Positions 13,009 through 30,890 of a stretch of 64,000 nt of DNA are shown here, in pieces. Under the pieces are notes generated by a model, which searched no databases, was not told where the DNA came from, and saw nothing but the letters and a program-made list of their open reading frames with translations. Origin of the DNA: Gramella sp. MT6 (GTDB taxonomy: Bacteria; Bacteroidota; Bacteroidia; Flavobacteriales; Flavobacteriaceae); assembly GCF_019357415.1 (NCBI RefSeq), contig NZ_CP048410.1, positions 3,498,501 through 3,562,500 of the forward strand, written 5' to 3'. The position numbers and the translations under genes were made by a program. Numbering within the stretch: the first letter of the stretch is position 1; the number at the start of each line of letters is the position of its first letter.

Positions 13009-14172
13009 ATGGAGAAGATAGTTTTAGAGGACTTTGTGCATTTGAATAGTGCACAGATAGGAATTGGGTTTGGGTATGACCGGGCAATGATAGATCATTT
13101 AAAAAAGCTGGAAGGAGTATCCTGGAGCAATATCTTTGGAACATTTTATATTAAGGCGAGTAAACAAAATCTGGATAGGCTTTTTAAACATTTAAACGGC
13201 CAGGGCTTTTTTGTAGATTATTCTAACCTTGATATTTTAAGGTTACCTGAAGACGAGACCAAACTTTTTACAGTCGAAACCGAGAGACCGGAAATTCAGG
13301 ATTTCAAAAAGTATCTGTATGGGCAGCGCTATAGTGAAAGTACCATTGAAACCTATACATACTTCACTGAAAAGTTCCTTAAATACCATCGGTTCAAAAG
13401 GAATTATACCCTGGCCGATGTAGATCGTTTTGTTGAAAATGAGATCGCTTTAAAAGATTATTCGATAAGTACCCACAGGCAGTGTATTAGCGCACTCAAG
13501 CATTATTTTGAACTTACAGAGCAAGAAGCCATAGATACAGCACATCTAAAAAGGCCTGATAAAAGCAAATTCCTTCCCGGTGTTCTAAGCAAAGAAGAGG
13601 TTTTTGACCTGCTTAGGGCAACCCGAAATATAAAGCATCGCTGTATCCTGGCGCTTATTTATTCTTCTGGTCTCAGGATTGGCGAGTTGCTGAATTTACA
13701 ACTTCGCGATATAGATGTAGACCGCCGGCAAATTCTTATAAGGCAGGCTAAGGGCAGAAAGGACAGGTATGTGATGTTAGCAGAAACTATTCTGCCTTTA
13801 TTTTATAATTACCTGCAGACTTATATGCCGAAAAAGTATTTTGCTGAAGGCCAGAATGACCAGCAATATTCATCTTCTGCGGTGCGAAGTTTTCTGAAAG
13901 ATTCCTGTCGCAGAGCCAGGATAAAGAAAAGGGTTACACCGCATACTTTAAGGCACAGCTATGCCACTCACATGCTGGAAAACGGGATCGATCTCAGGTA
14001 TATTCAGGAATTACTGGGGCATTCCAGGCCCGAGACCACCATGATATACACGCATGTGACGCAGAAGGATCTTTCGCGGATCAAGAGTCCGTTAGATGTA
14101 AGCATAAAGGAACTCATGGAGCGTTCTAATGCAGACCCAAACCTGCGCTTATCCCGGAACATACTCGAATAA
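13009..14172 (+). CDS. Integron-type tyrosine recombinase (IntI/Xer-like)
   Basis: This 387-residue tyrosine recombinase has a complete catalytic set: Arg223 (GLRIGE), Lys248 (QAKGRKDR), His312 and Arg315 (TPHTLRHS), His338 (LLGHS) and Tyr347 (TTMIYTHV). A SAM-like core-binding domain spans about residues 95-175. An extra N-terminal domain of about 90 residues (with VSWSNIFGTFYI) is not found in Xer or classical IntI. The C-terminal MIYTHV...SPLD segment resembles IntI1, but Lys248 to His312 is only 64 residues, so the IntI-specific insertion between patches II and III is absent. The gene reads into the first cassette of a large attC array that starts 28 bases after its stop. Its role in cassette integration and excision is inferred from this position. 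Confidence 0.85.
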   Translation: MEKIVLEDFVHLNSAQIGIGFGYDRAMIDHLKKLEGVSWSNIFGTFYIKASKQNLDRLFKHLNGQGFFVDYSNLDILRLPEDETKLFTVETERPEIQDFKKYLYGQRYSESTIETYTYFTEKFLKYHRFKRNYTLADVDRFVENEIALKDYSISTHRQCISALKHYFELTEQEAIDTAHLKRPDKSKFLPGVLSKEEVFDLLRATRNIKHRCILALIYSSGLRIGELLNLQLRDIDVDRRQILIRQAKGRKDRYVMLAETILPLFYNYLQTYMPKKYFAEGQNDQQYSSSAVRSFLKDSCRRARIKKRVTPHTLRHSYATHMLENGIDLRYIQELLGHSRPETTMIYTHVTQKDLSRIKSPLDVSIKELMERSNADPNLRLSRNILE

Positions 14173-14189
14173 AAATGTATATTGCTGTG

Positions 14190-14206
14190 GATATAACACG
14201 TTAGGC
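14190..14206 (+). other. attI-like primary attachment site
   Basis: GTTAGGC at 14200-14206 is a perfect integron core site (G/TTRRRY), preceded by TAAC two bases upstream, giving the small dyad TAAC-AC-GTTA. It lies 28 bases after the recombinase stop codon and marks the left boundary of cassette 1. Because the cassette begins at the TT, the sequence left of it is the candidate attI. It is very short and may extend into the end of the recombinase gene. Confidence 0.65.
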
Positions 14207-14220
14207 ACCATTTAAAAACA

Positions 14221-14886
14221 ATGAAAAAATTTATTCAAGTCTTCATTCCGATTCTTATAGGTTTAATATTAATCGGATTATCAATTTGGTTTTTCTTTTT
14301 AGCTAAAAATGACAATGCTTATTTATTATTATTTGGATTAGGAACTGCCATATTCATGCCGATTTCAATTTCGCTTTTCCAATATGCTGCCTCTTATAGA
14401 AAAAGAAACGTAAACCAAAAATTGTCAGAATTATCCAAAATTGCTGATATAAAAGATTTGTTAGATAAAACTAAATCTACCGAAGAACAACTTGAGATTT
14501 TAAAAAACGAATACAAAAACTTAGAGAAGAATATTCGCTACAATAGCGAAAAAATTGCTTTAGAACTAAGAAGAGATGACCTAATAAGGAAAGCAAAAGA
14601 AACTTTGAGAGAATTAGAAAGTATTGATGAGGAACTAATACACATTAACGCAAATCTAGAAAAATATAATGTCCCTTTAGAAGTTCAACTTTTAAGAGAA
14701 AGAGTTTTCAAAAAAGAAATTGCTGTATTTCGATTCAGAGAAAAAACTTATACTTACAAAAAGTATACTGCTCCAAACTCAAATTTTTTACCTCTAGATG
14801 ATATTTTGTTTCTGACTTTTAAAACAATTGAAAGAACTCAAAAGAAAAAATTGAAAGAAGAGGTTGATGAATCTATAAATAACTAG
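14221..14886 (+). CDS. Cassette 1: membrane protein with coiled coil
   Basis: This 221-residue protein has two N-terminal hydrophobic helices (about residues 7-28 and 34-56) and a long Lys/Glu-rich coiled coil (about 70-165), with a basic tail. I do not recognise the family; the layout suggests an inner-membrane anchored cytoplasmic rod. It is the first gene of the array, 48 bases after the recombinase stop with no terminator between, so it is probably transcribed from the recombinase promoter. Its attC begins at 14901. Confidence 0.75.
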   Translation: MKKFIQVFIPILIGLILIGLSIWFFFLAKNDNAYLLLFGLGTAIFMPISISLFQYAASYRKRNVNQKLSELSKIADIKDLLDKTKSTEEQLEILKNEYKNLEKNIRYNSEKIALELRRDDLIRKAKETLRELESIDEELIHINANLEKYNVPLEVQLLRERVFKKEIAVFRFREKTYTYKKYTAPNSNFLPLDDILFLTFKTIERTQKKKLKEEVDESINN

Positions 14887-14900
14887 AACAATTAAACGGT

Positions 14901-15034
14901 GCCTAACATCGGTTCATCGCAAATAACGGGTTTAGGTCGAAAAAGTGTAATTTTAGAAACCAAGAAAGAAAACAGTTAATCCGACAAGTCCGCATCCCTA
15001 CTCCCGCAACTTGCGATAACCGTAACCGTTACCT
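14901..15034 (+). repeat. attC1 (subfamily A, 134 bp)
   Basis: It starts with R'' GCCTAAC and ends with R' GTTACCT at 15028. The arms CGGTT-C-ATCGCAA (14910-14922) and TTGCGATAACCG (15011-15022) pair fully except for one extra C in the left arm, like the extrahelical base of classical attC sites. The ten bases GGTGCCTAAC at 14898-14907 are the exact complement of the GTTAGGCACC at the start of cassette 1. Confidence 0.85.
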
Positions 15035-15056
15035 GCAAGCTCCAGAAAAATTCGTA

Positions 15057-15578
15057 ATGAAAGAAAAGCTAAATAAAATATTTGAATTAGAATCGAAGGA
15101 AAAATACAATGAAGCTTTTACAGCCTATCAAAAATTGATCTTAGAAAATCCAGAAGATTTTAAAACGTGGAAATTTTACTATTTCTTTCTCTGGAGTATG
15201 TTAGAAGTCTCAAATAAACAATTCACTAAAAAAATTGATTTAAATAAAGAGTTAGAAAAGCAATTAAATATTGGACTCAGAAAATTTTCAAACTTACCTG
15301 AATTCAATTTCATTGCAGGATATACTATTTCTATTTTTCCATATCAATTTGGAGAATATGAAGATTTAGAAAAGAAGAGTATAGAAATGCTAAAATTAGC
15401 TACAAAATCAGAACCTGAGAATTTAATTTATAAAATGGCATTTCTGGGTTCTCAGACAGGTGATTTAAATGATAAAGAGTACGTTGAAATTAGCAAAAAA
15501 GCTCAAACATCAATAAAATCAGAATATCAAGGAAAAGGATTATTAAATCATTACTTTTTGCAAGTATTAAAAAGATAA
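15057..15578 (+). CDS. Cassette 2: TPR-like protein
   Basis: This 173-residue all-helical protein has repeats resembling TPR units (for instance the segment around residues 10-40 with NEAFTAYQKLILENPED). It has no signal peptide and is probably cytosolic. TPR proteins mediate protein contacts; no partner can be named. It is the single gene of its cassette, 28 bases after the cassette boundary. The cassette start TTACCTGC is complementary to GCAGGTAA of its own attC. Codon use is strongly A/T-ended, unlike the upstream chromosomal genes. Confidence 0.75.
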   Translation: MKEKLNKIFELESKEKYNEAFTAYQKLILENPEDFKTWKFYYFFLWSMLEVSNKQFTKKIDLNKELEKQLNIGLRKFSNLPEFNFIAGYTISIFPYQFGEYEDLEKKSIEMLKLATKSEPENLIYKMAFLGSQTGDLNDKEYVEISKKAQTSIKSEYQGKGLLNHYFLQVLKR

Positions 15579-15585
15579 GAGCCAG

Positions 15586-15719
15586 CAGGTAACAACGGTT
15601 CATCGCCAATAGCCGGCAGCGTTAGGAAAAAAATAATTAACTTGACCAACAAACCAATACTAAGCCGACAAATCCGCGTCCCGCACTCCGCCAACTGGCG
15701 ATAACCACGAACCGTTGTA
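15586..15719 (+). repeat. attC2 (subfamily B, 134 bp)
   Basis: R'' AGGTAAC at 15586-15592 and R' GTTGTAC at 15713-15719 bound this site. The left arm CGGTTCATCGCCA and right arm TGGCGATAACC pair with the same extra C as in attC1. GCAGGTAAC at 15584-15592 is the exact complement of the cassette 2 start GTTACCTGC. The middle differs from attC1 and defines a second subfamily. Confidence 0.85.
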
Positions 15720-15745
15720 CACATTTTTCATAAAAAAAATTCCGA

Positions 15746-16312
15746 ATGAGAACCGAATTTGATAATGAAATTTTAGAAGAATATGATTCGTTTGTTATTT
15801 CTGAAGAATTTGAAAAAGAGCAAATAAGAAAAAATATTCGAGAGAAACTTTTAAATAATAAAGAAGAACTAAATTCTGAAAATTATCAAATATTAGGTTT
15901 ACTAGATTATGAAAGTAATGATTGGAAAAAATATTCAAATCGAATAATTGAAAATTTTACTAAATCAATTGAAAAAGATAAAACCAATTTTTTAGCTCAA
16001 TTATATTTAGGACATATTTATCAAGATATTGGAAAGTTGGAAAAAGCACTCGAAGTTTATTTAAAAGTAGATTCTAAAGCTTTGAAAAAATTTCAGTTAT
16101 GGAGATATGTAAAACTTTTAGAACAAATTGGTTATTGTACTTACAAATTAGGGAACGAATCTTCGGGAATTGTATTTTTTGAAAAAGTACTTAAATGGTA
16201 TAAACAGACACCCAAAAATGAGCATTTAGCTAGACCAACGGAACTCTTGAATTGTTTACCTGACAATCATAAAATCGTAAAAGAAATTAAACTAATTGAA
16301 GATTATTTATAA
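15746..16312 (+). CDS. Cassette 3: TPR-like protein
   Basis: This 188-residue helical protein has at least two TPR-like units (around residues 75-107, with AQLYLGHIYQDIGKLEKALE, and 108-150). It has no signal peptide. It is a different protein from the one in cassette 2, though of the same general fold. It is the sole gene of its cassette, 33 bases after the boundary. The function is unknown; scaffolding or partner binding is the only reasonable family-level statement. Confidence 0.75.
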   Translation: MRTEFDNEILEEYDSFVISEEFEKEQIRKNIREKLLNNKEELNSENYQILGLLDYESNDWKKYSNRIIENFTKSIEKDKTNFLAQLYLGHIYQDIGKLEKALEVYLKVDSKALKKFQLWRYVKLLEQIGYCTYKLGNESSGIVFFEKVLKWYKQTPKNEHLARPTELLNCLPDNHKIVKEIKLIEDYL

Positions 16313-16324
16313 CAAAAAAACGGT

Positions 16325-16459
16325 GTACAACAGCGGTTCATCTCAAATTCCGGGTATTAATGGAAAAAATGTAATTTTAGAAACCAGGAGAGAAAATGGT
16401 TAAGCCGACAAGTCCGCGTCCCTACTCCCGCAACTTGCGATAACCGCAAACCGTTAGCA
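16325..16459 (+). repeat. attC3 (subfamily A, 135 bp)
   Basis: R'' GTACAAC at 16325-16331 and R' GTTAGCA at 16453-16459 bound this site. GTGTACAAC at 16323-16331 is the exact complement of GTTGTACAC at the start of cassette 3. The body is close to attC1, with the shared block GCCGACAAGTCCGCGTCCC and right arm TTGCGATAACCG. Confidence 0.85.
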
Positions 16460-16478
16460 TCCATTTTTATAAAGTGAT

Positions 16479-17666
16479 ATGCAATTTGAATTAAACAATG
16501 ACCAAAGGAAATATTTAGGATTAGAACTTGTCTCAAAAGATTGGGAGAAAGTAATCCTAAAAGGTGATAGCTACAGGCCAGACTCAATCTTGTACTTTGA
16601 TAAAAATATTATTAGAAAGCAAATCATATCATCTGACATAAAATATTCAGAAACTCAATATTTTGAAGAAACCAATGATAAAAAGTTGCTTCTTCCAAAG
16701 ACAAATAGAGGAAAACCTAAAAAACTAACTTCAGCAACTTTAGAAACAAAAACACCAATAGGAGTATATTTTAGTTTTGATCCAAATGGCATCACCATTG
16801 GAAACCACTCAACTCAAAACACTTTTTACTCAACCCGTTTTGAAGAAATTAAGTTTAAAAATATTGAAGATCTAAAAGTATGGTTGGAAGAATGGATAGC
16901 GAACTCATCGAATGAAGATTTAAAGCAAATTCAAGATTTTTCTAACAAAAAAAGAAAACGAGTAAAACTGGAAAATGGAGATTTTTTCAGATTCAAAGTT
17001 GACAGAAGAAATTACGGATTCGGACGTTTGATTTATGATTTAAGAACACTAAGAAAAGATCAAAAATTCAAATCAAATAAAAATTATGGTATAATGAATT
17101 TAATGGCTCAGCCGTTAGTCATAAAAGTTTATCATACTATTAGTTCTACTAAAGAAGTTGACATTGATAAAATAAAGAAATCAGAAGCTTTTCCTTCTCA
17201 ATACATAATGGATAACTCCCTTTTCTATGGGGATTTTGAAGTCCTTGAAAATCAAGAATTAGAAAAATCAGAATACGATTTTCCCATTTCCTATTCAAAG
17301 AGTATTCATTTTGACAATTTTGACAAAGTATATCTTCAATATGGAATGATTTACAAGGAAACAAGTATTAAAAAATTTAATAAATATCTGACCAGGGAAA
17401 AATCAGAAAGCAATAAGGAAGAAGGTAACAATCTCTTAAATATTTATCCTTTTAGAATGGAGAGTATTGGATATGACCTGAACATTTCAAAAGAAATACT
17501 TGAAAATTCCATTAGATTAAACTCTAATGATCCGTATTGGGAATCCAATCACTATAACATAGAATCTGATTTAAGAAACCCAAAAAATAAAAAACCTAAA
17601 AAAGAAATTTTCGAACATTTCGGTCTTGATCCAACCGGAACTTACTACGAGAATTTGAACAAATAA
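16479..17666 (+). CDS. Cassette 4: hypothetical protein
   Basis: This 395-residue protein is not one I recognise. It lacks a signal peptide and membrane helices, is rich in Lys, Asn and aromatic residues, and its middle part (about 165-290, with FRFKVDRRNYGFGRLIYD) resembles immunity-type or restriction-associated proteins only in general character. It is the only gene of cassette 4, 25 bases after the boundary; its attC is split by the IS110 element downstream. It looks intact. Confidence 0.7.
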   Translation: MQFELNNDQRKYLGLELVSKDWEKVILKGDSYRPDSILYFDKNIIRKQIISSDIKYSETQYFEETNDKKLLLPKTNRGKPKKLTSATLETKTPIGVYFSFDPNGITIGNHSTQNTFYSTRFEEIKFKNIEDLKVWLEEWIANSSNEDLKQIQDFSNKKRKRVKLENGDFFRFKVDRRNYGFGRLIYDLRTLRKDQKFKSNKNYGIMNLMAQPLVIKVYHTISSTKEVDIDKIKKSEAFPSQYIMDNSLFYGDFEVLENQELEKSEYDFPISYSKSIHFDNFDKVYLQYGMIYKETSIKKFNKYLTREKSESNKEEGNNLLNIYPFRMESIGYDLNISKEILENSIRLNSNDPYWESNHYNIESDLRNPKNKKPKKEIFEHFGLDPTGTYYENLNK

Positions 17667-17673
17667 AAACGCA

Positions 17674-17684
17674 TGCTAACAAAG
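17674..17684 (+). repeat. attC4, left fragment (interrupted by IS110 element)
   Basis: TGCTAAC (17674-17680) is the R'' box of cassette 4. ATGCTAAC at 17673-17680 is complementary to the GTTAGCAT at that cassette's start. The rest of the site resumes at 18884, about 1.2 kb away. AG at 17683-17684 recurs at 18882-18883 and is the candidate insertion core. Confidence 0.75.
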
Positions 17685-17708
17685 AACTAAGGTAAAATCC
17701 AAGTACTT

Positions 17709-18713
17709 CTAAGCTAATTTCGACATATAATTTTCCTGGTAATAAGTTCCTGATTTGGCTATGGCAAAAGCCTGTTTTAGTAGCTTGTTACACACGGCAA
17801 TCAGTGCCAGTTTCTTACTCTTTCCTTGTTCCACAATGCGTTCATAAAGTTCGCTGCAGGCCTTGTTATGTTTACAAGCGGTAAAGCTACAGAGGAATAG
17901 CAGGTTTCGCAGTTTCCGGTTCCCTACTTTGCTGATTCGGCTACGCCCTCTTACACTGGTTCCGGATTGTCTGATCGTTGGTGTTAGCCCACTATAACAA
18001 CAAAGTTGCCGCGCATTCTCAAAACTGCTAAATCCATCAGTAATTACAATCAATAGCATCGCCGTCTTCTTTCCCATTCCTGGAATGCTGGTTAACTGCT
18101 CCAGTTGATCCTTTTGAGTTTCGCTGACTAATGATTCCAACTTTGATTCCAGCTGGGTTAATTCCTTCTCTAATTGCTTCAGCATTCGGGTAAGCGATCT
18201 ACTTACAGTCTTTGAGGGGATTCCCAGGGCTTTCTCTCCATGGATCTTGTTCTTCACAGCAGTGCGTTGTTTTAGGTAAAGATCCTGAAGACTCAGAAGC
18301 TGCAAACATTCTGCCTGAACAGAATTTCTAGCCGTATATAAAGGAACTTTATTGGCTTGGGCATATTCACAGATCGCTCTGGCATCACTTTTATCGGTCT
18401 TGACCTTGGAGAGCTTCATCTGAATAAAACGCTTCACCGAAAGTGGATTCACAACCGACACCGTTATACCTTTCTCATACAGATACTGAGCTAATCTGTA
18501 ATGATAATAACCAGTGGCTTCCATAACTACCAAACTGTCTTTCTTAATAAACTTCAGCAAGCATTTAAAGCCTTTTACATCATTAGAGAACTGATCATGC
18601 TTTCCATCCTGATCAATTACATCAAAGAACGATTTACTAATGTCTACTCCGTAAAAATGTTTAATTTTATTCATATAAGAATGATTGGAAAGAACAGCTA
18701 CTTTGGTTTTCAT
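17709..18713 (-). CDS. IS110-family transposase (DEDD recombinase)
   Basis: This 334-residue transposase has an N-terminal RuvC-like DEDD domain with Asp24 (YGVDIS), Glu65 (VMEATG), Asp107 and Asp110 (KTDKSDARAI), a central coiled coil (about 150-205) and a C-terminal Tnp20 domain (SIPGMGKKTA to KLLKQAFAIA). Members of this family are guided by a structured bridge RNA made from a non-coding end of the element. A second ATG at residue 14 is an alternative start. The gene is intact, so the element may be active. It is the only transposase seen in the window. Confidence 0.9.
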   Translation of the reverse strand: MKTKVAVLSNHSYMNKIKHFYGVDISKSFFDVIDQDGKHDQFSNDVKGFKCLLKFIKKDSLVVMEATGYYHYRLAQYLYEKGITVSVVNPLSVKRFIQMKLSKVKTDKSDARAICEYAQANKVPLYTARNSVQAECLQLLSLQDLYLKQRTAVKNKIHGEKALGIPSKTVSRSLTRMLKQLEKELTQLESKLESLVSETQKDQLEQLTSIPGMGKKTAMLLIVITDGFSSFENARQLCCYSGLTPTIRQSGTSVRGRSRISKVGNRKLRNLLFLCSFTACKHNKACSELYERIVEQGKSKKLALIAVCNKLLKQAFAIAKSGTYYQENYMSKLA

Positions 18714-18724
18714 CGACTTTAAAA

Positions 18725-18840
18725 CGAGATCCAGGTCTCACAGAACTAAACGAAATTAAAGTAGAAAAGAGAGGGGATTATCATTGTTGACGGAATCTCT
18801 AGTTCCCACGGTTCATGTAATCTTATTCCTCTCTTTTGTT
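18725..18840 (-). ncRNA. Candidate IS110 bridge RNA
   Basis: This is the non-coding region upstream of the transposase, on the minus strand. A perfect 10-base inverted repeat (AAAAGAGAGG 18765-18774, CCTCTCTTTT 18828-18837) encloses a 53-base loop. The loop holds ACGGTTCAT (18808-18816), identical to the attC arm at the right junction (18884-18892), and TTGTTG (18784-18789), similar to the other flank read on the minus strand (TTGTTAGC), with a small hairpin between them (GGAA/TTCC). Closer to the gene, AGAACTAA (18742-18749) is identical to the element's left end (17683-17690). This matches the target- and donor-loop layout of bridge RNAs; the exact boundaries are inferred. Confidence 0.55.
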
Positions 18841-18883
18841 CTTTCTGGTTATAACATCAAAATTTAGAGAAATTAAACTTAAG

Positions 18884-19007
18884 ACGGTTCATCGTCAACA
18901 GACAGTAGCGTTAGAAAGAAAATAATTAACTTTAGTAACTAATGCTAAGCCGGCAAATCCGTGTCCCTTTCTCCGCCAACTGGCGATAACCTAGACCGCC
19001 GTTAGCA
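18884..19007 (+). repeat. attC4, right part (subfamily B)
   Basis: This continues the site broken by the IS110 element: left arm CGGTTCATCG at 18885, conserved block AAGCCGGCAAATCCGTGTCCC, cut here to GCCGGCAAATCC, right arm TGGCGATAACC at 18981-18991, and R' GTTAGCA at 19001-19007. It belongs with attC2, attC9 and attC10. Confidence 0.8.
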
Positions 19008-19046
19008 ACAAGAAAAAAATTGTGCTGAAATTAAAAATTCTGTAAA

Positions 19047-19424
19047 ATGACAAAAGTTATTTCTAGTCCTAATTGTGGAAACTCACCGAAAATGGAGTTT
19101 CTAAAAGAATTTAATATTGCCTTTGCAAAGGGAAACGTGGAATTTATTACGGAAAGTGTGACAGATGAAATTGTTTGGAATATAATTGGGAATAAAAAAA
19201 TTGAGGGAAAAGAAAAATTTAAAGAGGAGTTGGAAATAATGAAATCCGAAAAGGCGACAGAATTGATAATTGACCAAATCTTATCGCACGGAAAAGAAGG
19301 AGCAACAAACGGAATTATGAAAATGAAAAACGGAAAAAAATATGCCTTCTCAGACTTTTACAAATTTAAAGGAGCAAAAGGTGCGAAAATAAAATCGATA
19401 ACATCATACGTAATCGCATTTTAG
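19047..19424 (+). CDS. Cassette 5: SnoaL/NTF2-like domain protein
   Basis: This 125-residue protein has the layout of SnoaL-like (NTF2 fold) proteins: two N-terminal helices (LKEFNIAFAKGNVEFI), a strand with DEIVWNIIG, a helix and three C-terminal strands ending ITSYVIAF. The fold forms a small pocket used by isomerases, hydrolases or binding proteins; no catalytic residue can be assigned. It is soluble and the only gene of its cassette, 45 bases after the boundary. The cassette start and its R'' box pair at eight of nine positions. Confidence 0.75.
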   Translation: MTKVISSPNCGNSPKMEFLKEFNIAFAKGNVEFITESVTDEIVWNIIGNKKIEGKEKFKEELEIMKSEKATELIIDQILSHGKEGATNGIMKMKNGKKYAFSDFYKFKGAKGAKIKSITSYVIAF

Positions 19425-19436
19425 GAAAAAGCCAGT

Positions 19437-19570
19437 TGCCAACAGCGGTTCATCTCGAATTACAGGTATTTTTGGAAAAAGTGTAATTTTAATAACCAAA
19501 AAAGAAAATAATTAAGCCGACAAATCCGCGTCCCTTTCTGCGCCAACTGGCGATAGCCGAGATCTTAGGT
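19437..19570 (+). repeat. attC5 (mixed subfamily, 134 bp)
   Basis: R'' TGCCAAC at 19437-19443 and a degenerate R' CTTAGGT at 19564-19570 bound this site. The left half follows subfamily A (CATCTCGAATTACAGGTATT) and the right half subfamily B (CGCCAACTGGCGATAGCC), so the site looks like a recombinant of the two. Confidence 0.75.
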
Positions 19571-19623
19571 TGCAATGTTCGAAAAAATTAAATTGAAAAT
19601 AATTAGTTTTTAAAATATTGAAT

Positions 19624-19998
19624 GTGAATACAACACCAGAACATGATAATAGAATTGCAAAAATGACTTTTGCATCCGTTTATCCACACTATGTGACAAA
19701 AATTGAGAAAAAAGGTAGAACAGAAAAGGAATTAATTACTGCAATTGAATGGTTAACAGGATATGATAAAAAGCAGATACAAGATCAGATCGATAAAAAA
19801 GTAACTTTTGAAAAATTCTTTGACAATGCTAAATTAAATGAAAATGCTCATTTGATTAAGGGTATGATTTGCGGATATAGAATTGAAGATATTGAAACAC
19901 CTTTAACTAAAAAGGTCAGATATCTAGACAAATTGGTCGATGAATTGGCAAAAGGTAAAAAACTGGAAAAAATTTTAAGGACAAGTTCTAATTCATAG
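19624..19998 (+). CDS. Cassette 6: DUF2200 family protein
   Basis: This small soluble protein of about 124 residues strongly matches the DUF2200 pattern: [21 protein letters not shown] at the start (a family hallmark), [20 protein letters not shown], and the C-terminal [14 protein letters not shown] and [18 protein letters not shown] blocks. The family is widespread and of unknown function. I prefer the GTG at 19624; a TTG two codons earlier is possible. It is the only gene in its cassette, about 60 bases after the boundary. Confidence 0.8.
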
Positions 19999-20012
19999 GT
20001 CAGTAACACTGC

Positions 20013-23135: not shown

Positions 23136-23164
23136 AGCATATTTAATTTAGTATTACTGAATTT

Positions 23165-23902: not shown

Positions 23903-23951
23903 TTAGTAACTAGCTTTAATTTTAGTGATTAGTTTTTATAAATTTGTTATT

Positions 23952-24317
23952 ATGAAAAATGATAAGTCTAACATCTCAAAACCCTGCCAGCTGTATGTAA
24001 AGGGAGTGAAGGATACTCAGGATTTGATGAGTGGAAAATGGAAAACTGTAATTATTGCCGCATTGTATAATACCGGGAAATTCAGGTTTATGGAGCTTGT
24101 GCGACATATTGATGGGATCTCACCAAAAATGTTATCTCAAGAACTCAAAGATCTTGAAGCAAATAATCTCATTGAACGAAAAGTTTTGGACACTATGCCT
24201 ATCGCTGTGGAATATGAACTAACTCCTTATGGAAAAAGCCTTGGCAACGTCGTGGATGCGATGAGCGACTGGGGAAGGAAATATCGCAAAGCGGTTGTAG
24301 AAAATACATCTCAATAA
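23952..24317 (+). CDS. HxlR family transcriptional regulator
   Basis: This protein of about 121 residues has the winged-helix HxlR fold. Near the N-terminus is the conserved Cys (KPCQLYVKGV), then DLMSGKWKTVIIAALYNTGKFRFMEL, of which GKWKTVIIAALYNTGKFRF is typical, and ISPKMLSQELKDLEANNLI as the recognition region. The Cys suggests sensing of electrophiles, aldehydes or disulfide stress. I chose ATG 23952. It is divergent from the broken NAD(P)-binding gene across a palindromic operator and is the last gene of cassette 8, in cassette orientation. Confidence 0.88.
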   Translation: MKNDKSNISKPCQLYVKGVKDTQDLMSGKWKTVIIAALYNTGKFRFMELVRHIDGISPKMLSQELKDLEANNLIERKVLDTMPIAVEYELTPYGKSLGNVVDAMSDWGRKYRKAVVENTSQ

Positions 24318-24336
24318 ATTACAGGAAAAACACAGC

Positions 24337-24480
24337 ACATAACACCCGTTCATTGTCGATAGACGGGAACGTTAGAAAAAAATAATTATATTGACCAACA
24401 AACCAATACTAAGCCGACTCCCGAAGCATCAGAACCGCGTCCCCTACTCCGCCATTTGGCGATAACCGAGACTGTTGGTA
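24337..24480 (+). repeat. attC8 (subfamily B with internal insertion, 144 bp)
   Basis: R'' ACATAAC (24337-24343) and R' GTTGGTA (24474-24480) bound this site. The body is subfamily B with about 11 extra bases (TCCCGAAGCATC) after GCCGAC, as also seen in attC10. The right arm is TTGGCGATAACCG. Confidence 0.8.
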
Positions 24481-24489
24481 ATAATAATT

Positions 24490-25131
24490 ATGAGAAAGAT
24501 AATTCCCGTCATATTAGCGGTTCTAATTTATGGATGTAATACCCAAAAGGATATAATTGGAAATTATTGTAGCAGTTTCAACGGAGGATTTGATTCAAGT
24601 TGTTATTATTTCAAAGAAAATCAAACCTTTGAATATGAAACTGTTGGTGATCTTGGAACCTATATAAAAGGAAGTGGGAAATATGAAGTGGGAAACAAAA
24701 AAATAAAACTAGTTTTCAATTCAGAACCTACCATTCCAAAAACTCAAATTAGTAAAGTAGATATACCTGAAAAAAGTAAAGATTCTATTAATTTGAGGTT
24801 TGTAATTAAGGATGAAACTGGAAATAAACAATATGGAGCAATGGTTCTTCTTGCATCACAAGATTATAAAAACAAAAATTATTATTCTCCTGATGAAGAT
24901 TTGATAATAAATAAAGAAAGAAGTGATCAGTTTGAGAAAATTAAGATTATCAATGTTTTTTACGAACCTTTTACTTTTACTCAGAAATTGAATAAAAGTC
25001 AAGAAATAGAAATTATTCAAATTCCTGAACAACCGCATATTGTTTCTGACACAATAAGGTACTTAGATTTTAAAAAGCAAAATTCAAAAATAGTGTTGGA
25101 AAGCGGTAATATTGAGTTTAGTAAATCATAA
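24490..25131 (+). CDS. Cassette 9: lipoprotein of unknown function
   Basis: This protein of about 213 residues has a short signal peptide and lipobox (VLIYGC, Cys near 16), so it is probably an outer-membrane or periplasmic lipoprotein. The mature part is beta-rich, with a segment FKENQTFEYETVGDLGTYIKGS typical of small lipocalin-like or META-like beta proteins. No enzymatic motif is visible. It is the only gene of its cassette; ATG 24490 is preferred over a TTG at the boundary. The cassette start pairs with its own R'' at nine of eleven positions. Confidence 0.75.
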   Translation: MRKIIPVILAVLIYGCNTQKDIIGNYCSSFNGGFDSSCYYFKENQTFEYETVGDLGTYIKGSGKYEVGNKKIKLVFNSEPTIPKTQISKVDIPEKSKDSINLRFVIKDETGNKQYGAMVLLASQDYKNKNYYSPDEDLIINKERSDQFEKIKIINVFYEPFTFTQKLNKSQEIEIIQIPEQPHIVSDTIRYLDFKKQNSKIVLESGNIEFSKS

Positions 25132-25135
25132 CTAT

Positions 25136-25268
25136 TTCCAACAACAGTTCATCCCCAATAGACGGCAGCGTTAGAACGAAAACAATTAACTCGACCAATA
25201 AACTAATCCTAAGCCGACAAATCCGTGTCACCTAATCCACCAATTGGCGATAATCGGGACCGTTAGCT
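25136..25268 (+). repeat. attC9 (subfamily B, 133 bp)
   Basis: R'' TTCCAAC (25136-25142) and R' GTTAGCT (25262-25268) bound this site. The left half has CAATAGACGGCAGCGTTAG, then AACTCGACCAATAAACTAAT and the right arm TTGGCGATAATCGGG. Confidence 0.8.
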
Positions 25269-25292
25269 GTAATAATTCATAAAGTGGTAGAT

Positions 25293-25844
25293 ATGTACAA
25301 GGTCTTTATTCTTATATTCCTCTTGACAAGCATAAATTGTATTGCTCAAAAGGATTACCAGTTAAAATTGAAGGTGAGTGGAAATATGCCTGAATTTGAA
25401 TATATTTTTAATATTTATAGAAATAGTCAAAATACTAAAATCTGTTTTTCAGAATATACTGGGAAGGAAAAGTTTAGTAAAGCTGATAAGGAAAAAATAG
25501 AAGAATTGCGTAATAAAAAGGATCGTAAAGCATCTGATATGAAGGAATTAATGAATTTATACGATAATTCAAAAATCTTTACAAAAGAATGTTTTAATTA
25601 CTCAGTAGATGATTCAATTATTAAAATTAGCGATTCAATTATTCAATCAAAAGAAGATATCCTTTCAGAAATTAAAAGGAATAAAAATCGAGTTGTTCTT
25701 GATGCAATTCAATTTGAAGTCACTATGAGAAATAAAAATGGAGTTGAATATTCATATCATATTCATGCTCCAGATAACGAACATTACAAGTTATTCAGCC
25801 AATTTGTAAAGGAAAGTTCTAAAGAATTTGAGGTATTTCAATAG
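25293..25844 (+). CDS. Cassette 10: secreted protein of unknown function
   Basis: This protein of about 183 residues has a cleavable signal peptide (hydrophobic 5-16, ending near NCIAQ). The mature region is charged, partly helical (LRNKKDRKASDMKELMNLYDN) and unrecognised. A periplasmic or surface location is expected. I chose ATG 25293 over an in-frame GTG at 25284. It is the single gene of the cassette, which starts TTAGCTGTA; its R'' (25878) is complementary at most positions. Confidence 0.7.
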   Translation: MYKVFILIFLLTSINCIAQKDYQLKLKVSGNMPEFEYIFNIYRNSQNTKICFSEYTGKEKFSKADKEKIEELRNKKDRKASDMKELMNLYDNSKIFTKECFNYSVDDSIIKISDSIIQSKEDILSEIKRNKNRVVLDAIQFEVTMRNKNGVEYSYHIHAPDNEHYKLFSQFVKESSKEFEVFQ

Positions 25845-25877
25845 CAAGGAAAAATTTAGCATCGAATAAAATACTAC

Positions 25878-26022
25878 AGCCAATAACAGTTAACCGTCAA
25901 TAGACGGCAGCGTTAGAACGAAAACAATTAACTCGACCAACAAACCAATACCAAGCCGACTCCCGAAGCATCGCGACCTCATCCCCTACTCCGCCAACTG
26001 GCGATAACCGCGACTGTTGTAG
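25878..26022 (+). repeat. attC10 (subfamily B with internal insertion, 145 bp)
   Basis: R'' AGCCAAT (25878-25884) and R' GTTGTAG (26016-26022) bound this site. It shares TCAATAGACGGCAGCGTTAG with attC9 and the 11-base insertion with attC8. The right arm is TGGCGATAACCG. Confidence 0.8.
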
Positions 26023-26186
26023 TGCATTTTAAACAAAAAATCTCGGTTCAATAACTTAATCCAACAAATCATAACGTAGAAAGTTCTAAGACGCGAAGAA
26101 TACGAATGAAATATGCTGCTAATATTTTTATCAATATTTTAAAGCAACCTTTTAGGAAAAATTGAATCTTCTATAAAAGGAAAGCT

Positions 26187-26677
26187 ATGAAAAAAAGACT
26201 TACTATTTTACTGATAGGAATTTTAATTTCAAGCTGTTCTAACAATGATGATGACGGAATTGACTGCTCAATTTTTGACCCAGCAATTCTTGAATTGTAT
26301 ATTAGATTAGTTGATGAAAATGGTGATAATTTAATTGAAAATGGAACAATTGACCCTGAAAATATAACTGTTGAAGGAGACTTTTCAAATCCAGGCTTTC
26401 GATATATTCCGCCTAATGAGTTTGCAGAACCCGATGCGGACATTAGAAAGTACGATAATACTCTTTTTCTGTTTATTCCTAACCAACCAAAATTTGAATA
26501 CACAATATTTTTGAAAACTCGGCTTCGATCATTTTGGACTTTGATGCAAGGTTCGCTGAACTTCCTTGTGAAATATCTTATTTTATTCCGACTCAACTGA
26601 CTTATAATAACCAAAACGTGGAATCAGAAAATGCAGAAACTGATGAACTTATATTTTTGGCAGAAATTGAAATATAA
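26187..26677 (+). pseudogene. Cassette 11: lipoprotein gene with a frameshift
   Basis: The gene starts with a lipoprotein signal (MKKRLTILLIGILISSC, Cys near 17) and an Asp/Asn-rich linker (SNNDDDGIDC). Frame 1 keeps good composition to about FEYTIF at 26510; then a second frame continues with ENSASIILDFDARFAELP and ends at TAA 26675-26677. The break lies in a run of five T at 26508-26512; one more T would restore a single frame of about 163 residues. This may be genuine decay or a sequencing error in a homopolymer. As written, translation ends at 26600 with an altered tail. Unknown family. Confidence 0.75.
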
Positions 26678-26684
26678 AAACGCA

Positions 26685-26741
26685 CTACAACAAATCTGCG
26701 TCACCTATTCCGCCAACTTGCGATAATCGAGACCGTTCTAT
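26685..26741 (+). repeat. attC11 (truncated, 57 bp)
   Basis: R'' CTACAAC (26685-26691) is followed directly by AAATCTGCGTCACC and the right arm TTGCGATAATCG to R' GTTCTAT (26735-26741). The entire left arm and centre are missing. GCACTACAAC at 26682-26691 is still the exact complement of the cassette 11 start GTTGTAGTGC. Confidence 0.75.
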
Positions 26742-26753
26742 ATAAATTAAAAA

Positions 26754-27848
26754 ATGAATAAATTGAAACTTATATACCTGTTCTTAATATCATCTCTTTT
26801 GGTATTAAATAGTTGTTCTAAAGAAGATAACTCTACGGAAATAAATCATCCATTAGGTCTAACCTCATGGGAGCTGATTACAGAAATTGAAGGAGTAAAT
26901 ATCGATAAGGCTTTTCGGCTTCACATTGATGAAGACAAAGTACTTTGGGTAGGTACTTTCGGTAATGGGTTGATAAAAATTGAAGGTGATAATGTAACTC
27001 AATTGACAACGGAAAACTCTACAATACCTGATGACATAATCTATGCTATAGATTCAGATAATGACGGATTTGTTTGGGGAGGAACCGGAAATGGTTTATT
27101 TAAATACAAGGAAGATTTAACTGTATATAATTCAACTAACTCAGATATGATCCTGGACCATGCTCTCTGTATTGCTCTAGACAAAGCTAACAATGTATGG
27201 TTTGCAAACGGCAATTCTGAGGAGGGCGGTCTTATGAAATTTGATCAAACAGAAAATAATTGGCATCTATATACTCCTGACAATAGTGATATTCCTAATG
27301 GAATTGTAAAAGATGTTCATATTACCGAAGATGGAACAGTCTGGACTGCACACGGAATGGCAAATGGTGTAGGTGGAATCTGGAAAAAAAGTACTGATGG
27401 GCAGGAAAAGGTCTATAATACAGATAATTCTAATTTAAATTATAATTGGATAACAACCATAAAACATGATGAAGAAGGTAATATATGGGCGGGTACTGAT
27501 GCTGCTGTCTATTTGAATGGTGTAGATCTTCATGGAGGAATACAAATTTTAATGAACGACGAATTCATTGACCATAATCCCGCAAACTCAGGCGGAACAA
27601 CAAACAGAGTTACCGCTATGGAGTTTGATTGTAATGGGAATCTTTGGGTCGCCACCTCTGTGGATGCACCAACATTTAATTTAGAACATGAATTATCTGT
27701 TTACAATGGAGAGAAATGGTTTGTACTATCCAATGAAATTGAAAATTTTCCTAATTTATACATTAGTGATATAGAAGTTGACGGAGATACAGTATGGATT
27801 TCTGCACCCGATTATGGTCTTATAAAAATAAGCTTAGAATGTGATTGA
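26754..27848 (+). CDS. Cassette 12: two-component-regulator-propeller-like lipoprotein
   Basis: This 364-residue protein has a lipobox (LVLNSC, Cys near 21) and five or more repeats of about 45-50 residues with W-[VA]-G-T/G-x-G-x-G-L motifs (LWVGTFGNGLIKIEG, VWGGTGNGLFKYKE, IWAGTDAAVYLNG, LWVATSVD). These are seven-bladed beta-propeller repeats of the ligand-sensing type found in hybrid two-component systems. Here no membrane helix or kinase domain follows, so it is a free surface or periplasmic propeller, possibly glycan-binding. It is the only gene of its cassette. Confidence 0.8.
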   Translation: MNKLKLIYLFLISSLLVLNSCSKEDNSTEINHPLGLTSWELITEIEGVNIDKAFRLHIDEDKVLWVGTFGNGLIKIEGDNVTQLTTENSTIPDDIIYAIDSDNDGFVWGGTGNGLFKYKEDLTVYNSTNSDMILDHALCIALDKANNVWFANGNSEEGGLMKFDQTENNWHLYTPDNSDIPNGIVKDVHITEDGTVWTAHGMANGVGGIWKKSTDGQEKVYNTDNSNLNYNWITTIKHDEEGNIWAGTDAAVYLNGVDLHGGIQILMNDEFIDHNPANSGGTTNRVTAMEFDCNGNLWVATSVDAPTFNLEHELSVYNGEKWFVLSNEIENFPNLYISDIEVDGDTVWISAPDYGLIKISLECD

Positions 27849-27856
27849 AGATCTAC

Positions 27857-27989
27857 AGAGAACAACGATACATCGCAAATAACGGGTATTGCAGAAAAAG
27901 CGTAAATTTAGATATTAAGATGGAAAATGGTTAAGCAGACAAGTCCGCGTCCCTACTCTTGCAAATTGCAATAACCGCAACCGTTAGGC
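27857..27989 (+). repeat. attC12 (subfamily A, 133 bp)
   Basis: R'' AGAGAAC (27857-27863) and R' GTTAGGC (27983-27989) bound this site. The left arm reads CGATACATCGCAA and the right arm TTGCAATAACCG, slightly decayed. The R' is identical to the attI-like GTTAGGC at 14200. Confidence 0.8.
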
Positions 27990-28009
27990 ACAATTAAAAA
28001 CAGCGTATT

Positions 28010-28918
28010 ATGAATAGGACCATTCTTGTCGTACTTGCTTTCTCATTACAGTTGTCGCTTGCATTCTCTCAGACTAAAATTATTGACATGCACGTTCATT
28101 CTTATTCAGAAAATGATTTTGGTGAGCGTGAACCAACAAACGATTACTATGGAATAAAAGGCTCTGCAAGTGCAGAAGCACATCGGGCCGAGACTTTTGC
28201 AGCATTTAAAAAATGGAATATTGTGAAGGCTATGGTAAGTGGCAATCCTCAAAGTGTGGAAGAATGGGCCGCAAAGGATAGCGCTAATCGAGTAATAAGG
28301 GGAATCTTAATTTTTTCTCCCGATGATTATGGCTTGGACAGTAGTAAGTTTGAGCAAATGGTAAAGGACAAAAAAATTGAAGTCTTTGGAGAAGTTGGGC
28401 CATATTATAGTGGTACAACACTTAGCGATTCTATTTGGCAGCCCTATTTACGTATTTGTGAAAAGTATGATATTCCTGTTGCCGTTCATACAGGTGGAGG
28501 CGACCCAGGTGGAACATATTCATGGGCTCCTAAAGCAAGGTTGAAATTGGGTGACCCCTATTTGATTGAAGATGTTTTGGTAAAATACCCAAAACTAAGA
28601 ATTTATTTGATGCATAACGGTGGGGAAGAATGGCACGAACATACTTTGCGACTCATGGCTTATTATCCCCAATTATACACTGATATAGCTGTTATGCTAT
28701 GGGTTGAGCCAAATACCCAGCGAACTGTAACAGAATTTCTGAAGAACGCAAAACACGCAGGTTATTTAGACAGAGTGATGTTTGGGTCAGACCAAATGGT
28801 TTGGCCATATGCTATTGAAAAATCAATTACTTTTCTTAATAGTCTGGATTTTCTTACTGATAAAGAAAGGGAAGGTATCTTCTATGACAATGCTGCAAGA
28901 TTTTTAAAATTGAATTAA
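28010..28918 (+). CDS. Cassette 13: secreted amidohydrolase-2 family protein
   Basis: This 302-residue protein has a signal peptide (cleavage near residue 20, AFS-QT) and an amidohydrolase-2 TIM-barrel. Metal ligands are visible: His28 and His30 (DMHVH), the His in VAVHTGGGDPGG, the His in LMHNGGEEWHEH, and the C-terminal Asp in FGSDQMVWP. The family hydrolyses or decarboxylates lactones and aromatic acids. The export signal and the cassette location suggest a periplasmic accessory enzyme; the substrate is unknown. It is longer than most cassette genes here and looks intact. Confidence 0.82.
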   Translation: MNRTILVVLAFSLQLSLAFSQTKIIDMHVHSYSENDFGEREPTNDYYGIKGSASAEAHRAETFAAFKKWNIVKAMVSGNPQSVEEWAAKDSANRVIRGILIFSPDDYGLDSSKFEQMVKDKKIEVFGEVGPYYSGTTLSDSIWQPYLRICEKYDIPVAVHTGGGDPGGTYSWAPKARLKLGDPYLIEDVLVKYPKLRIYLMHNGGEEWHEHTLRLMAYYPQLYTDIAVMLWVEPNTQRTVTEFLKNAKHAGYLDRVMFGSDQMVWPYAIEKSITFLNSLDFLTDKEREGIFYDNAARFLKLN

Positions 28919-28922
28919 CTGT

Positions 28923-29048
28923 ACCTTAGAGCAATTCATCTCAAAATCAGGGTATAGTAGAAAAAGTGTAATTTTATTAATCAAGAAAGAAATGGTTAAT
29001 CCAACAAGTCCACATCCCTACTCCTCGACTTTTAAATAACCTTAGCTT
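28923..29048 (+). repeat. attC13 (subfamily A, decaying)
   Basis: ACCTTAG (28923-28929) stands for R'' and CTTAGCT (29042-29048) for R'. The body keeps AATTCATCTCAAAATCAGGG and AAAAGTGTAATTTTATTAA, but the right arm has changed to CGACTTTTAAATAACC and no longer pairs. Confidence 0.7.
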
Positions 29049-29077
29049 CTGGAAAAACTTCAAATGAAATTTTATCA

Positions 29078-29938
29078 ATGAAATTTAACCCTCTAATAGT
29101 TCTCTTAATTTTAGTATTTAATCAAAAATGTTATTCTCAAGCAAATAGAACTTCAGATTCAAAAGAATTCTTTTATAACATAAGTATCGGTGCAGTAATT
29201 GGAACTATAGGGGCAATAATTAATAAAGAACCTGATCAAGGATTTGGAAAAACTTTACTTAAGGGATCTTCCCAAGGAGCTTTAGGAGGTTATATTACAT
29301 TTGAAAGTAAAAGACTAATTCGCCTAGCACAAAGACAAGAAGATTGGAAAATATATTGGGCTGCAAAATTGATAAATGCTGGTGGTGTTTCCATTAAAGA
29401 AAATGCAGCCTTAAACAAAGATTTTTGGAAAAAATGGCATATAAATATTGGTTTTAGTAGAATTGAATTTGATTTAGAGAATAAATTTAAAGTTCAATAT
29501 AAAGTTATGCCTGTTGCATTGGTGTATACAATTGGAATTGCTTCTCAAACAAAATTTGAATTTGAGAAAACATTAAAAACAGGTGAATTTATATTTTCGA
29601 GTGACACCGATAGATTTGTAGAAACTAATTCAGTAGGAATTGCTTTTCCTGGGAATATAGTTATGTACGAACCTAATAAAGATAGTTTTAGCACTTTATC
29701 TCATGAAATAATACATCTTTATCAATACAATGATTTCTCTCAGTTAGAAGTTCTTTTAGATAAACCACTGAATAGGATTAATTCAAGAAACAATCTATTT
29801 AGTGAGATTAATAAGTATATACATTATGATTTACGCTATATACCAAATAATATAGTTTATTGGATCGAAATGAATAATTCAGATTATTATGCGAATTTTT
29901 TAGAAAGAGAAGCAGGATATTATGCTGACAGTTTCTGA
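29078..29938 (+). CDS. Cassette 14: secreted protein with HEIIH metalloprotease motif
   Basis: This 286-residue protein has a signal peptide (cleavage near residue 20, CYS-QA) and a motif SHEIIHLYQY near residue 210, an HExxH zinc-site pattern. A glycine-rich segment (GAVIGTIGAII) lies near residue 32. I do not recognise the family; the third zinc ligand may be the Glu in FLEREAGYYAD near the C-terminus, a pattern also seen in conserved Bacteroidota beta-barrel-like proteins. It is the only gene in its cassette. Peptidase activity is inference only. Confidence 0.65.
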   Translation: MKFNPLIVLLILVFNQKCYSQANRTSDSKEFFYNISIGAVIGTIGAIINKEPDQGFGKTLLKGSSQGALGGYITFESKRLIRLAQRQEDWKIYWAAKLINAGGVSIKENAALNKDFWKKWHINIGFSRIEFDLENKFKVQYKVMPVALVYTIGIASQTKFEFEKTLKTGEFIFSSDTDRFVETNSVGIAFPGNIVMYEPNKDSFSTLSHEIIHLYQYNDFSQLEVLLDKPLNRINSRNNLFSEINKYIHYDLRYIPNNIVYWIEMNNSDYYANFLEREAGYYADSF

Positions 29939-29964
29939 AGCGATTATTTGAGGTAGAGATCATT

Positions 29965-30096
29965 TACCAAGAGCAATTCATCTCAAATTACGGGTATTGA
30001 AGAATAGTGTAATTTTAGAAACCAAGTAAGAAAGTAGTAATACTGACAAGTCCAGATCCATACTCCGCCTACTGCCTATAACCGGGACCATTGACC
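29965..30096 (+). repeat. attC14 (subfamily A, decaying)
   Basis: TACCAAG (29965-29971) stands for R'' and ATTGACC (30090-30096) for R'. The body keeps CAATTCATCTCAAATTACGG, GTGTAATTTTAGAAACCAAG and the ACTCCGCCTACTGCCTATAA stretch, which still resembles the right arm. Confidence 0.7.
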
Positions 30097-30119
30097 AAAA
30101 CTTTCATAAAAATTAGAAT

Positions 30120-30842
30120 ATGAATGAAATAATAGATTTAAGTCAGGAAATATATGAAGGTATGCCAGTTTATAAAGACCTTCCTCAGGTTAAAATGACC
30201 ATTCATAATTCTCATGAAGAATGGAATAGAATTAAAAACCCTACAACTATAACGCCTGCAGTCCATAAATTAGAATTAGGAGAACATACAGGAACTCATG
30301 TAGATGCCATTAACCATATGGAGATCCAGCATAAAGGAAAATCCATCGAAAAAATGCCTCTCTCTATGTTCTATACGGAAGGCGTATGTCTCGATTTTTC
30401 AAATAAAAGCCTAAGAGAATTAATTGAACCTGAGGAAATAGAACTTGCTTGCTTAAAAGCCAATTTGGAAATAAAAGAAGGTGATACTGTTTTACTTTAT
30501 ACAGATCATTACCGAAAACACTTTAACACAGAGAACTGGGGAAATGGACCTGGAATATCAATTTCGTGTGCAAGATGGTTAGGAGAAAAGAAAATAGCTG
30601 GATTTGGAGTAGAAACAATGTCTCCCGGAGTTTCAGGAATATCAAATAGAGAGGTCCATCATATTTGTGGAGAGATGAATTTTACTCACTACGAAAATTT
30701 GATAAATCTTCATAGTTTGATAGGAAGGGGTAGATTTCGATTTATAGGATTACCGCTCAAAATTCGTGGAGGTACCGGTTACCCCTGTGAGAGCTGTTGC
30801 GGTTTTCGAAAACAAGTAAAAAATTTGGGGCAATACGTTTAA
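30120..30842 (+). CDS. Cassette 15: cyclase / kynurenine formamidase-like hydrolase
   Basis: This 240-residue protein of the cyclase superfamily opens with IDLSQEIYEGMPVY and carries the zinc motif HTGTHVDAINHM (HxGTHxD) near residue 59, as in kynurenine formamidases and isatin hydrolases. It has no signal peptide. The C-terminus ends in a Cys cluster (YPCESCCGF), which is unusual. The reaction is probably metal-dependent hydrolysis of an amide or lactam; the substrate is unknown. It is the last cassette gene with a recognisable upstream attC. Confidence 0.8.
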   Translation: MNEIIDLSQEIYEGMPVYKDLPQVKMTIHNSHEEWNRIKNPTTITPAVHKLELGEHTGTHVDAINHMEIQHKGKSIEKMPLSMFYTEGVCLDFSNKSLRELIEPEEIELACLKANLEIKEGDTVLLYTDHYRKHFNTENWGNGPGISISCARWLGEKKIAGFGVETMSPGVSGISNREVHHICGEMNFTHYENLINLHSLIGRGRFRFIGLPLKIRGGTGYPCESCCGFRKQVKNLGQYV

Positions 30843-30843
30843 C

Positions 30844-30890
30844 CTATAACAGGCGGCACAGTTAGATAGAAGATAATTAACTTGAAAGTC
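30844..30890 (+). repeat. attC15 remnant (subfamily B)
   Basis: CTATAACAGGCGGCACAGTT and AGATAGAAGATAATTAACTT match the left half of subfamily B (AATAGACGGCAGCGTTAG, AAAACAATTAACTCGA). No clear right arm follows, though 30905-30970 keeps weak similarity. It marks the degraded distal end of the array. Confidence 0.6.

Follow-up and report, generated by a model that had tools for sequence, protein, structure and literature searches.

Is a row of gene cassettes behind a tyrosine recombinase an integron if that recombinase is not an integron integrase? The question is raised by a locus in Gramella sp. MT6, a marine member of the Bacteroidota whose nearest named relatives belong to Christiangramia (formerly Gramella). 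The window, that is, the whole stretch of 64,000 nucleotides that was analysed, covers positions 3498501-3562500 of a closed 3.77-Mb chromosome, and it contains a recombinase gene followed by an attI-like site and about 15 cassettes with attC-like palindromes (Table 1). The initial annotation had named this array a sedentary chromosomal integron. Integrons are defined by IntI, and the array appears integron-like in mechanism but its recombinase fails the defining test of the IntI family. Judged from its anatomy and from comparison with related loci, it very probably collects cassettes in the manner of an integron, with a recombinase family of its own.

Excision of an integron cassette brings its two end boxes together in a circle, which is why they pair with each other; each site in the array, by contrast, is made up of ends that belong to two different cassettes. 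Fourteen sites, all on the + strand, were located in the window with a profile built from 12 of them, and one further half-site was present, which bears out the roughly 15 tandem cassettes first proposed. An own score was defined as the number of matches, of seven, between a cassette's first and last bases. The mean in the window was 5.0 for own-cassette ends (n = 14), 2.23 for the two ends of the same site (n = 13) and 2.26 for other pairs (n = 183). None of 10,000 permutations equalled the own value, even though it was lowered by one cassette scored one base out of register; the repeats are not due to chance. Across 17 arrays, in which all sites were on the recombinase's strand, the corresponding means were 6.01 (n = 274), 2.69 (n = 287) and 2.61 (n = 8119). 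Such own-end complementarity is the signature of integron cassettes.

Agreement between own ends in the 17 arrays extended to about position 16, where it was 0.71; it was 0.84-0.97 at most earlier positions, was partial at position 10 (0.57), and failed at position 11 (0.01). Position 11 was A at 278 of 283 cassette starts and C at 277 of 289 ends. Of the 246 own pairs with matches at five or more of positions 4-9, 233 had the A/C combination. Read on the bottom strand, this top-strand A·C mismatch becomes a T·G wobble. The actual boxes are approximately GTT-R-N5-AAT and ACT-N5-Y-AAC. GTT and AAC are nearly fixed, the next position is G or C in 70%, those that follow are variable, and the box is longer than the canonical one and includes the position-11 rule. 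The canonical 7-bp boxes RYYYAAC and GTTRRRY, with which the sites were originally described, were not the rule in the window or in the box tally over the arrays, and RYYYAAC showed no enrichment in the window, with 86 occurrences where 115 were expected.

The GTT of the first cassette starts 28 nt past the recombinase stop codon, as first described. A motif made up of TATATT, ATATAAC and GTT, with a short spacer after TATATT and two bases after ATATAAC, was found 3' of the recombinase stop in 20 of the 23 loci read and with one base difference in one more (L023), that is, in 21 of 23 in all; the motif was absent in L032 and L036. ATATAAC lies at a near-constant distance from the stop, and the sequences begin to diverge after GTT, the first 12 bases being common to two loci. 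This conserved site adjoining the recombinase is attI-like and would serve as the insertion site.

Gene order conserved among relatives would have spoken against the initial annotation, and it was not found. The 294 inter-site stretches of the arrays yielded 273 open reading frames (ORFs) of at least 50 aa, 248 of them on the recombinase strand. These fell into 223 families, 197 of them singletons and 22 present in more than one array, and only 1 of 236 adjacent family pairs was shared in this comparison, which was made between species. Upstream of the recombinase, an ALDH gene was found in 7 of 29 named loci (L009-L015), a TerB-like gene in 8 and a Crp-like gene in 9, all of them in Christiangramia or Gramella; in further genomes of the genus, ALDH matched at 77-85% in G001, G006, G007, G008, G009 and G012. 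Cassettes common to species pairs were 96.4, 97.3 and 93.2% identical in DNA, compared with 75.8, 75.9 and 75.8% for the ALDH genes of the same pairs, and two pairs with closer baselines gave 98.1% versus 88.6% (G007/G008) and 94.7% versus 83.3% (G006/G011). The matches of cassette 4 with G009, G011 and G012 were to an IS110 element. From one species to the next the cassettes are almost entirely different, next to an upstream flank that is for the most part conserved. Arrays reach 63 sites: within the stretches covered, the first run of sites numbered 63 in G006, 56 in G008, 50 in G001, 45 each in G007 and G005, 43 in G002, 20 in G009 and 14 in the window.

The recombinase has the full catalytic set initially attributed to it: it contains a Phage_integrase domain (PF00589, E 1.8e-41), and R223, K248, H312, R315, H338 and Y347, which we take to be the catalytic residues, are invariant columns in a 28-row alignment. 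Among the NCBIfam models matched, the only one passed was NF040815 (XerA-like), at 221 bits against a cut-off of 220. Two integron integrase models were missed, TIGR02249 (197.9 bits, cut-off 265) and PRK15417 (142 bits, cut-off 435), and in both the match was split in two stretches. XerD (176 bits) and XerC (169 bits) were far below their equivalog cut-offs of 330 and 335. The protein is like the chromosome-dimer recombinases XerA, XerC and XerD in its catalytic and core-binding domains, and unlike them in its N-terminal domain, attI and cassette array.

IntI-type integrases carry an additional domain near patch III, and alignment of the window protein to IntI4 (2a3v) is broken at the position of this insert. 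Counted on the alignment, the IntI-specific insert was absent in 44 of 44 rows, comprising the window protein and relatives that may not all head an array. The span 253-312 was 59-62 aa in all 44 rows versus 102 aa in all 16 IntI rows, which came from other Bacteroidota classes; it was 65-68 aa in 10 Xer and 62 aa in three Thermococcus proteins. Ahead of the core, the 44 rows had an N-terminal extension of 45-175 aa (70-121 aa in 41 of them), compared with only 0-30 aa in 14 of 16 IntI and 10 of 10 Xer rows. This part was predicted as a small alpha/beta domain (pLDDT 88), and we would guess that it takes the structural role held in IntI by the insert. As a separate observation, the fold of the domain in the window protein (13009-13239, residues 1-77) weakly resembled those of the XPB N-terminal domain and SMARCAL1 HARP. 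In a phylogenetic tree, IntI was a separate clade (support 100/100), and a cassette-recombinase clade was recovered at 76/64. These data indicate that the recombinase is not IntI and belongs to a different recombinase family. The layout, attachment sites and cassette gain and loss of a sedentary chromosomal integron are present, but the array is not one of the usual kind, because that class needs IntI.

The search of its own genome with a covariance model (R1), a check proposed at the outset, gave 39 matches at E ≤0.01. Fourteen were in the window array, and the others were at 3264-3274 kb (8), 2611-2624 kb (8), 1421-1423 kb (3), 817 kb (2) and 669 kb (1), with three weak ones. No recombinase match in the genome other than the window's was better than E 1e-30, so the other site clusters, being without a close recombinase, resemble clusters of attC sites lacking integron-integrases (CALINs). 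Every one of the 17 further genomes examined in the genus had an ortholog of the recombinase (54-84% identity), as did, among named genomes, Gillisia, Salinimicrobium, Salegentibacter, Bizionia and Xanthomarina. A relative (E ≤1e-45) was present in 145 of 295 sampled Bacteroidia genomes, a count of recombinases and not of arrays.

Outside Christiangramia, 41 loci or stretches were taken up, three of which were too short and 38 of which were scored. Chains of at least two cassettes were found in 20 of the 38, and the longest chain in 190 shuffled controls was 1. There were no cassette-end pairs in seven upstream flanks (~64 kb) or in 42 kb of the window. Site sequences varied between lineages, the form of the ends was kept, and in profile-free chains from distant loci position 11 was A/C in 42 of 61.

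Draft contigs (L165, L172, L174, L175 and several matches of the Bacteroidia survey) often ended ~100-130 bp or some hundreds of bp beyond the recombinase. This would be expected were assemblies broken by repeated sites, and arrays may therefore be undercounted in drafts. Three Thermococcus recombinases (L037-L039) had ~40% identity and no N-terminal domain, and no array was seen in the two tested (L038, L039). One Chryseobacterium plasmid (L231) encoded a recombinase of the group; some of the cassette ends downstream of it matched, and an IS110 transposase gene was present as well. Plasmids may be a further vehicle of the system.

Bacteroidota are among the phyla listed with integrons in one source (PMC8618304). 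The IntegronFinder 2.0 survey, which searches with integrase profiles and attC models, names one complete integron in Bacteroidetes proper, in Salinibacter (PMC9024848). In our sample, true IntI (TIGR02249 over cut-off) was present in 84 of 296 Bacteroidota genomes, and 85 of the 86 genomes with a match were outside the window's class.

Recombinase-associated acquired interbacterial defence (rAID), the assembly of which is called an area of active research (PMC12247911), offers one alternative, namely that the window holds this known system in a new host. The rAID recombinases lack the IntI insert, have an N-terminal extension and were placed among the cassette recombinases. Three rAID rows joined two cassette recombinases (support 97/80), and 48 rows including rAID came together (66/36), with the window recombinase on the same side of the tree but off the rAID branch itself. 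Both systems have a co-oriented array with repeated intergenic motifs and own-end complementarity, which in three rAID-like loci pooled was 6.39 of 8 (n = 18) versus 4.72 (n = 133; p 1.6e-4); these are weaker data from three loci, and the figures are from revised site ends, the first choice having shown little. The sites are unlike, being ~34-43 nt in rAID, with a core whose two sides are mostly ATT and AAC, and ~140 nt with GTT here, and most rAID pairs, by eye, lacked the position-11 rule. The rAID arrays carry immunity genes. Orphan immunity content of the type VI secretion system was not seen in the window beyond one Imm26 protein, as the other annotated cassettes (MarC, amidohydrolase, DUF2200, propeller and TPR among them) were not of immunity families and several were unannotated. 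It is therefore unlikely that the array is rAID as now known.

Descent from a divergent IntI that lost its insert, which would make the array an ordinary integron, fits the common logic of attI and attC. The closest known systems include the IntI-type sedentary chromosomal integrons of Vibrio, Xanthomonas and, in Bacteroidetes, Salinibacter ruber (PMC9024848). Like the present array, those have a recombinase with attI, tandem cassettes with attC hairpins, complementary own ends, G^TT insertion (deduced for the present array), co-oriented genes, a bottom-strand bias (here by predicted folding) and IS elements that target the sites. The C-terminal SPL is also common to the window protein and IntI4, and a quick tree put IntI and the cassette recombinases on one side of a starred branch, with the Xer and Thermococcus rows on the other. 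This descent is nevertheless improbable given that none of the 44 relatives has the insert, that the integron integrase models are missed and the XerA-like one is passed, and that IntI forms its own fully supported clade, though the cassette clade has only 76/64. The arrays also differ: here the recombinase is co-oriented with the array and has an N-terminal domain instead of the insert, complementarity runs to ~16 nt with a fixed mismatch at position 11, and the boxes are GTTRN5 rather than GTTRRRY. When ten IntI loci were searched on both strands by the same chain method, no position-11 rule was found, A/C occurring in 3 of 28 pairs at the strictest setting, where the chains came from two loci.

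The recombinase is closest to XerA-like proteins, and cassettes might accordingly move as double-stranded circles at a Xer/dif-like site with no hairpin folding. Such a site would call for the same core in every copy, whereas here the boxes vary and are complementary within each cassette, and the arms behaved as stems. Among 28 sites, 30 cells had changed on both sides (9.2±2.2 in shuffles; 0 of 500 shuffles reached this), and there were 7 arm pairs with both-side change (4.7 in shuffles; 18 of 500). In the inner arm, GGTT-C-ATCGC / GCGAT-AACC, pairing was kept through both-side changes and one base was left outside the helix; attC likewise leaves a base outside the helix. For 150 of 238 circular sites rebuilt from cassette ends, the predicted energy was -26.8 kcal/mol for the bottom and -22.4 kcal/mol for the top strand, the bottom being more stable in 150 of 150. 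As linear sites they folded at -19.5 kcal/mol on the bottom strand, which was the better of the two strands in 144 of 150. Sixty composition shuffles gave -11.4 kcal/mol for the bottom strand and a strand difference of -1.1 versus the observed -4.5. Single linear sites of the window folded modestly, with bottom-strand z-scores of -1.5, -3.1, -2.0 and 0.0 for four of them. Movement as double-stranded circles is thus very unlikely. Finally, the repeats might be REP- or MITE-like hairpin elements, dispersed in the genome and lying between these genes by chance, with no relation to the integrase next to them. This agrees with the clusters away from the recombinase, but it has almost no chance of being correct, because the ends of such an element would match within one copy, and same-site ends matched at the random level while own-cassette ends matched, all sites of 17 arrays were on the recombinase's strand, and the profile-free chain test agreed with the own-end test, which speaks against an artefact of the site profile.

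Several points weigh against an integron-like mode of cassette collection. Eighteen of the 38 stretches outside Christiangramia had fewer than two linked cassettes, so not every recombinase relative has a detectable array; several of the 18 were continuations past an array and two were Thermococcus. The upstream flank is not kept everywhere, the ALDH match in G002 being only 24.5%. One of the four single window sites folded no better than shuffles on either strand, folding energies are predictions, and the site profile was seeded with the window's own sites. Own complementarity was weak in several distal window cassettes, and decay with distance from attI was mixed: site score was significantly related to rank in the window, G005 and G001 and not in the other five, and own complementarity only in G005, marginally in G008. 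Activity, including any present-day recombination, is deduced from sequence, and all comparisons were made across species.

In the mechanism that we propose, a cassette would take the form of a circle, where the meeting of its two end boxes would complete a long hairpin. The recombinase would act on the folded bottom strand, where position 11 is T·G, and would cut at G^TT and join the cassette to attI or to another site. Folding of a single strand would explain why own ends match while sequences differ among cassettes. Extending this to the other loci, we consider it reasonably likely that there is a second integron class, distinct from IntI and widespread in Bacteroidia, with a XerA-like recombinase whose N-terminal domain senses the mismatch and with bottom-strand hairpins bearing a fixed T·G, of which the gut rAID arrays are one specialised branch. 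IntI integrons may be a sister or an offshoot of this class. If so, marine and gut bacteria would have a large and uncounted means of exchanging genes, its recombinase family being present in about half of the sampled Bacteroidia genomes, and rAID would gain a concrete, testable assembly mechanism, since the same design appears to underlie the gut rAID immunity arrays. The system also offers a natural comparison of how hairpin DNA can be used by a recombinase that lacks the IntI domain.

Table 1. Features of the array in the window (own score: matches of 7 between the first and last bases of a cassette)
Feature	Position	Strand	Remarks
Array	13009..30884	+	recombinase gene, attI-like site, ~15 cassettes with attC-like palindromes
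Tyrosine recombinase, 387 aa	13009..14172	+	N-terminal domain (residues 1-77), SAM-like core-binding domain, catalytic domain
attI-like site	14178..14202	+	TATATT-N6-GATATAAC-AC-GTT; GTT at 14200; bases beyond GTT are first cassette
Cassette 1 (ORF 14221-14886, no assigned function)	14200..15027	+	own ends GTTAGGCACC / GGTGCCTAAC, 7/7
attC-like site 1	14896..15035	+	profile; covariance model
Cassette 2 (ORF 15057-15578)	15028..15713	+	own score 6/7
attC-like site 2	15583..15721	+	profile
Cassette 3 (TPR protein 15746-16312)	15714..16452	+	own score 6/7
attC-like site 3	16320..16458	+	profile
Cassette 4 (Imm26-domain protein 16479-17666)	16453..19000	+	own score 6/7; site split by IS110 element
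IS110-family element	17682..18873	-	between R'' box (AAC) and L'' arm of site 4
attC-like site 4, 3' part	18884..19004	+	profile
Cassette 5 (SnoaL-like protein 19047-19424)	19001..19564	+	own score 5/7; protein below Pfam cut-off
attC-like site 5	19433..19573	+	profile
Cassette 6 (DUF2200 protein 19618-19998)	19565..20138	+	own score 6/7
attC-like site 6	20008..20147	+	profile
Cassette 7 (MarC protein 20227-20841)	20139..20964	+	own score 4/7
attC-like site 7, degenerate	20846..20973	+	profile
3.4-kb stretch, five genes (AraC, DUF983, DsbA-like, NmrA-like, HxlR)	20974..24331	both	own score 3/7, not clean cassette
attC-like site 8	24332..24480	+	profile
Cassette 9 (ORF 24475-25131)	24474..25261	+	own score 6/7
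attC-like site 9	25130..25269	+	profile
Cassette 10 (ORF 25284-25844)	25262..26015	+	own score 2/7 with start at 25263, one base out of register
attC-like site 10	25874..26022	+	profile
Cassette 11 (ORF 26187-26600)	26016..26734	+	unscored: 5' half of its site lost
attC-like site 11, 3' half only	26689..26740	+	profile
Cassette 12 (regulator-propeller protein 26754-27848)	26735..27982	+	own score 5/7
attC-like site 12	27852..27991	+	profile
Cassette 13 (amidohydrolase 28010-28918)	27983..29047	+	own score 6/7
attC-like site 13	28917..29053	+	profile
Cassette 14 (ORF 29078-29938)	29048..30089	+	own score 5/7
attC-like site 14	29960..30096	+	profile
Last cassette (arylformamidase-like 30120-30842)	30090..30884	+	own score 3/7; protein below NCBIfam cut-off
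5' half-site closing array	30835..30884	+	array end

IS1111-attC elements are a parallel to the IS110 insertion in site 4. All four IS110 copies of the genome were in site clusters, and in every case the insertion had AAC on one side and the L'' arm on the other, at an identical point. The array stretches gave 15 IS110 matches (that of the window and 14 in related arrays), with the left junction after AACA in 15 of 15 and the right junction seen in 14, the fifteenth alignment ending short. The search covered the array stretches only, and it therefore shows the insertion point and not absence elsewhere in those genomes. The sequence to the right of the element differs in Salinimicrobium, so the junction is set more by position in the site than by the sequence there.

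Most of the array agreed with the original description of each cassette as ending in an attC-like site; the stretch of five genes on both strands did not, and the distal sites were degenerate. That stretch, which has no clean cassette boundary, is perhaps a chromosomal insertion or several decayed cassettes. In Salinimicrobium sediminis (L024, 11204-12585), two adjacent cassettes had identical ends and the same length (571 bp), as after duplication or repeated insertion.

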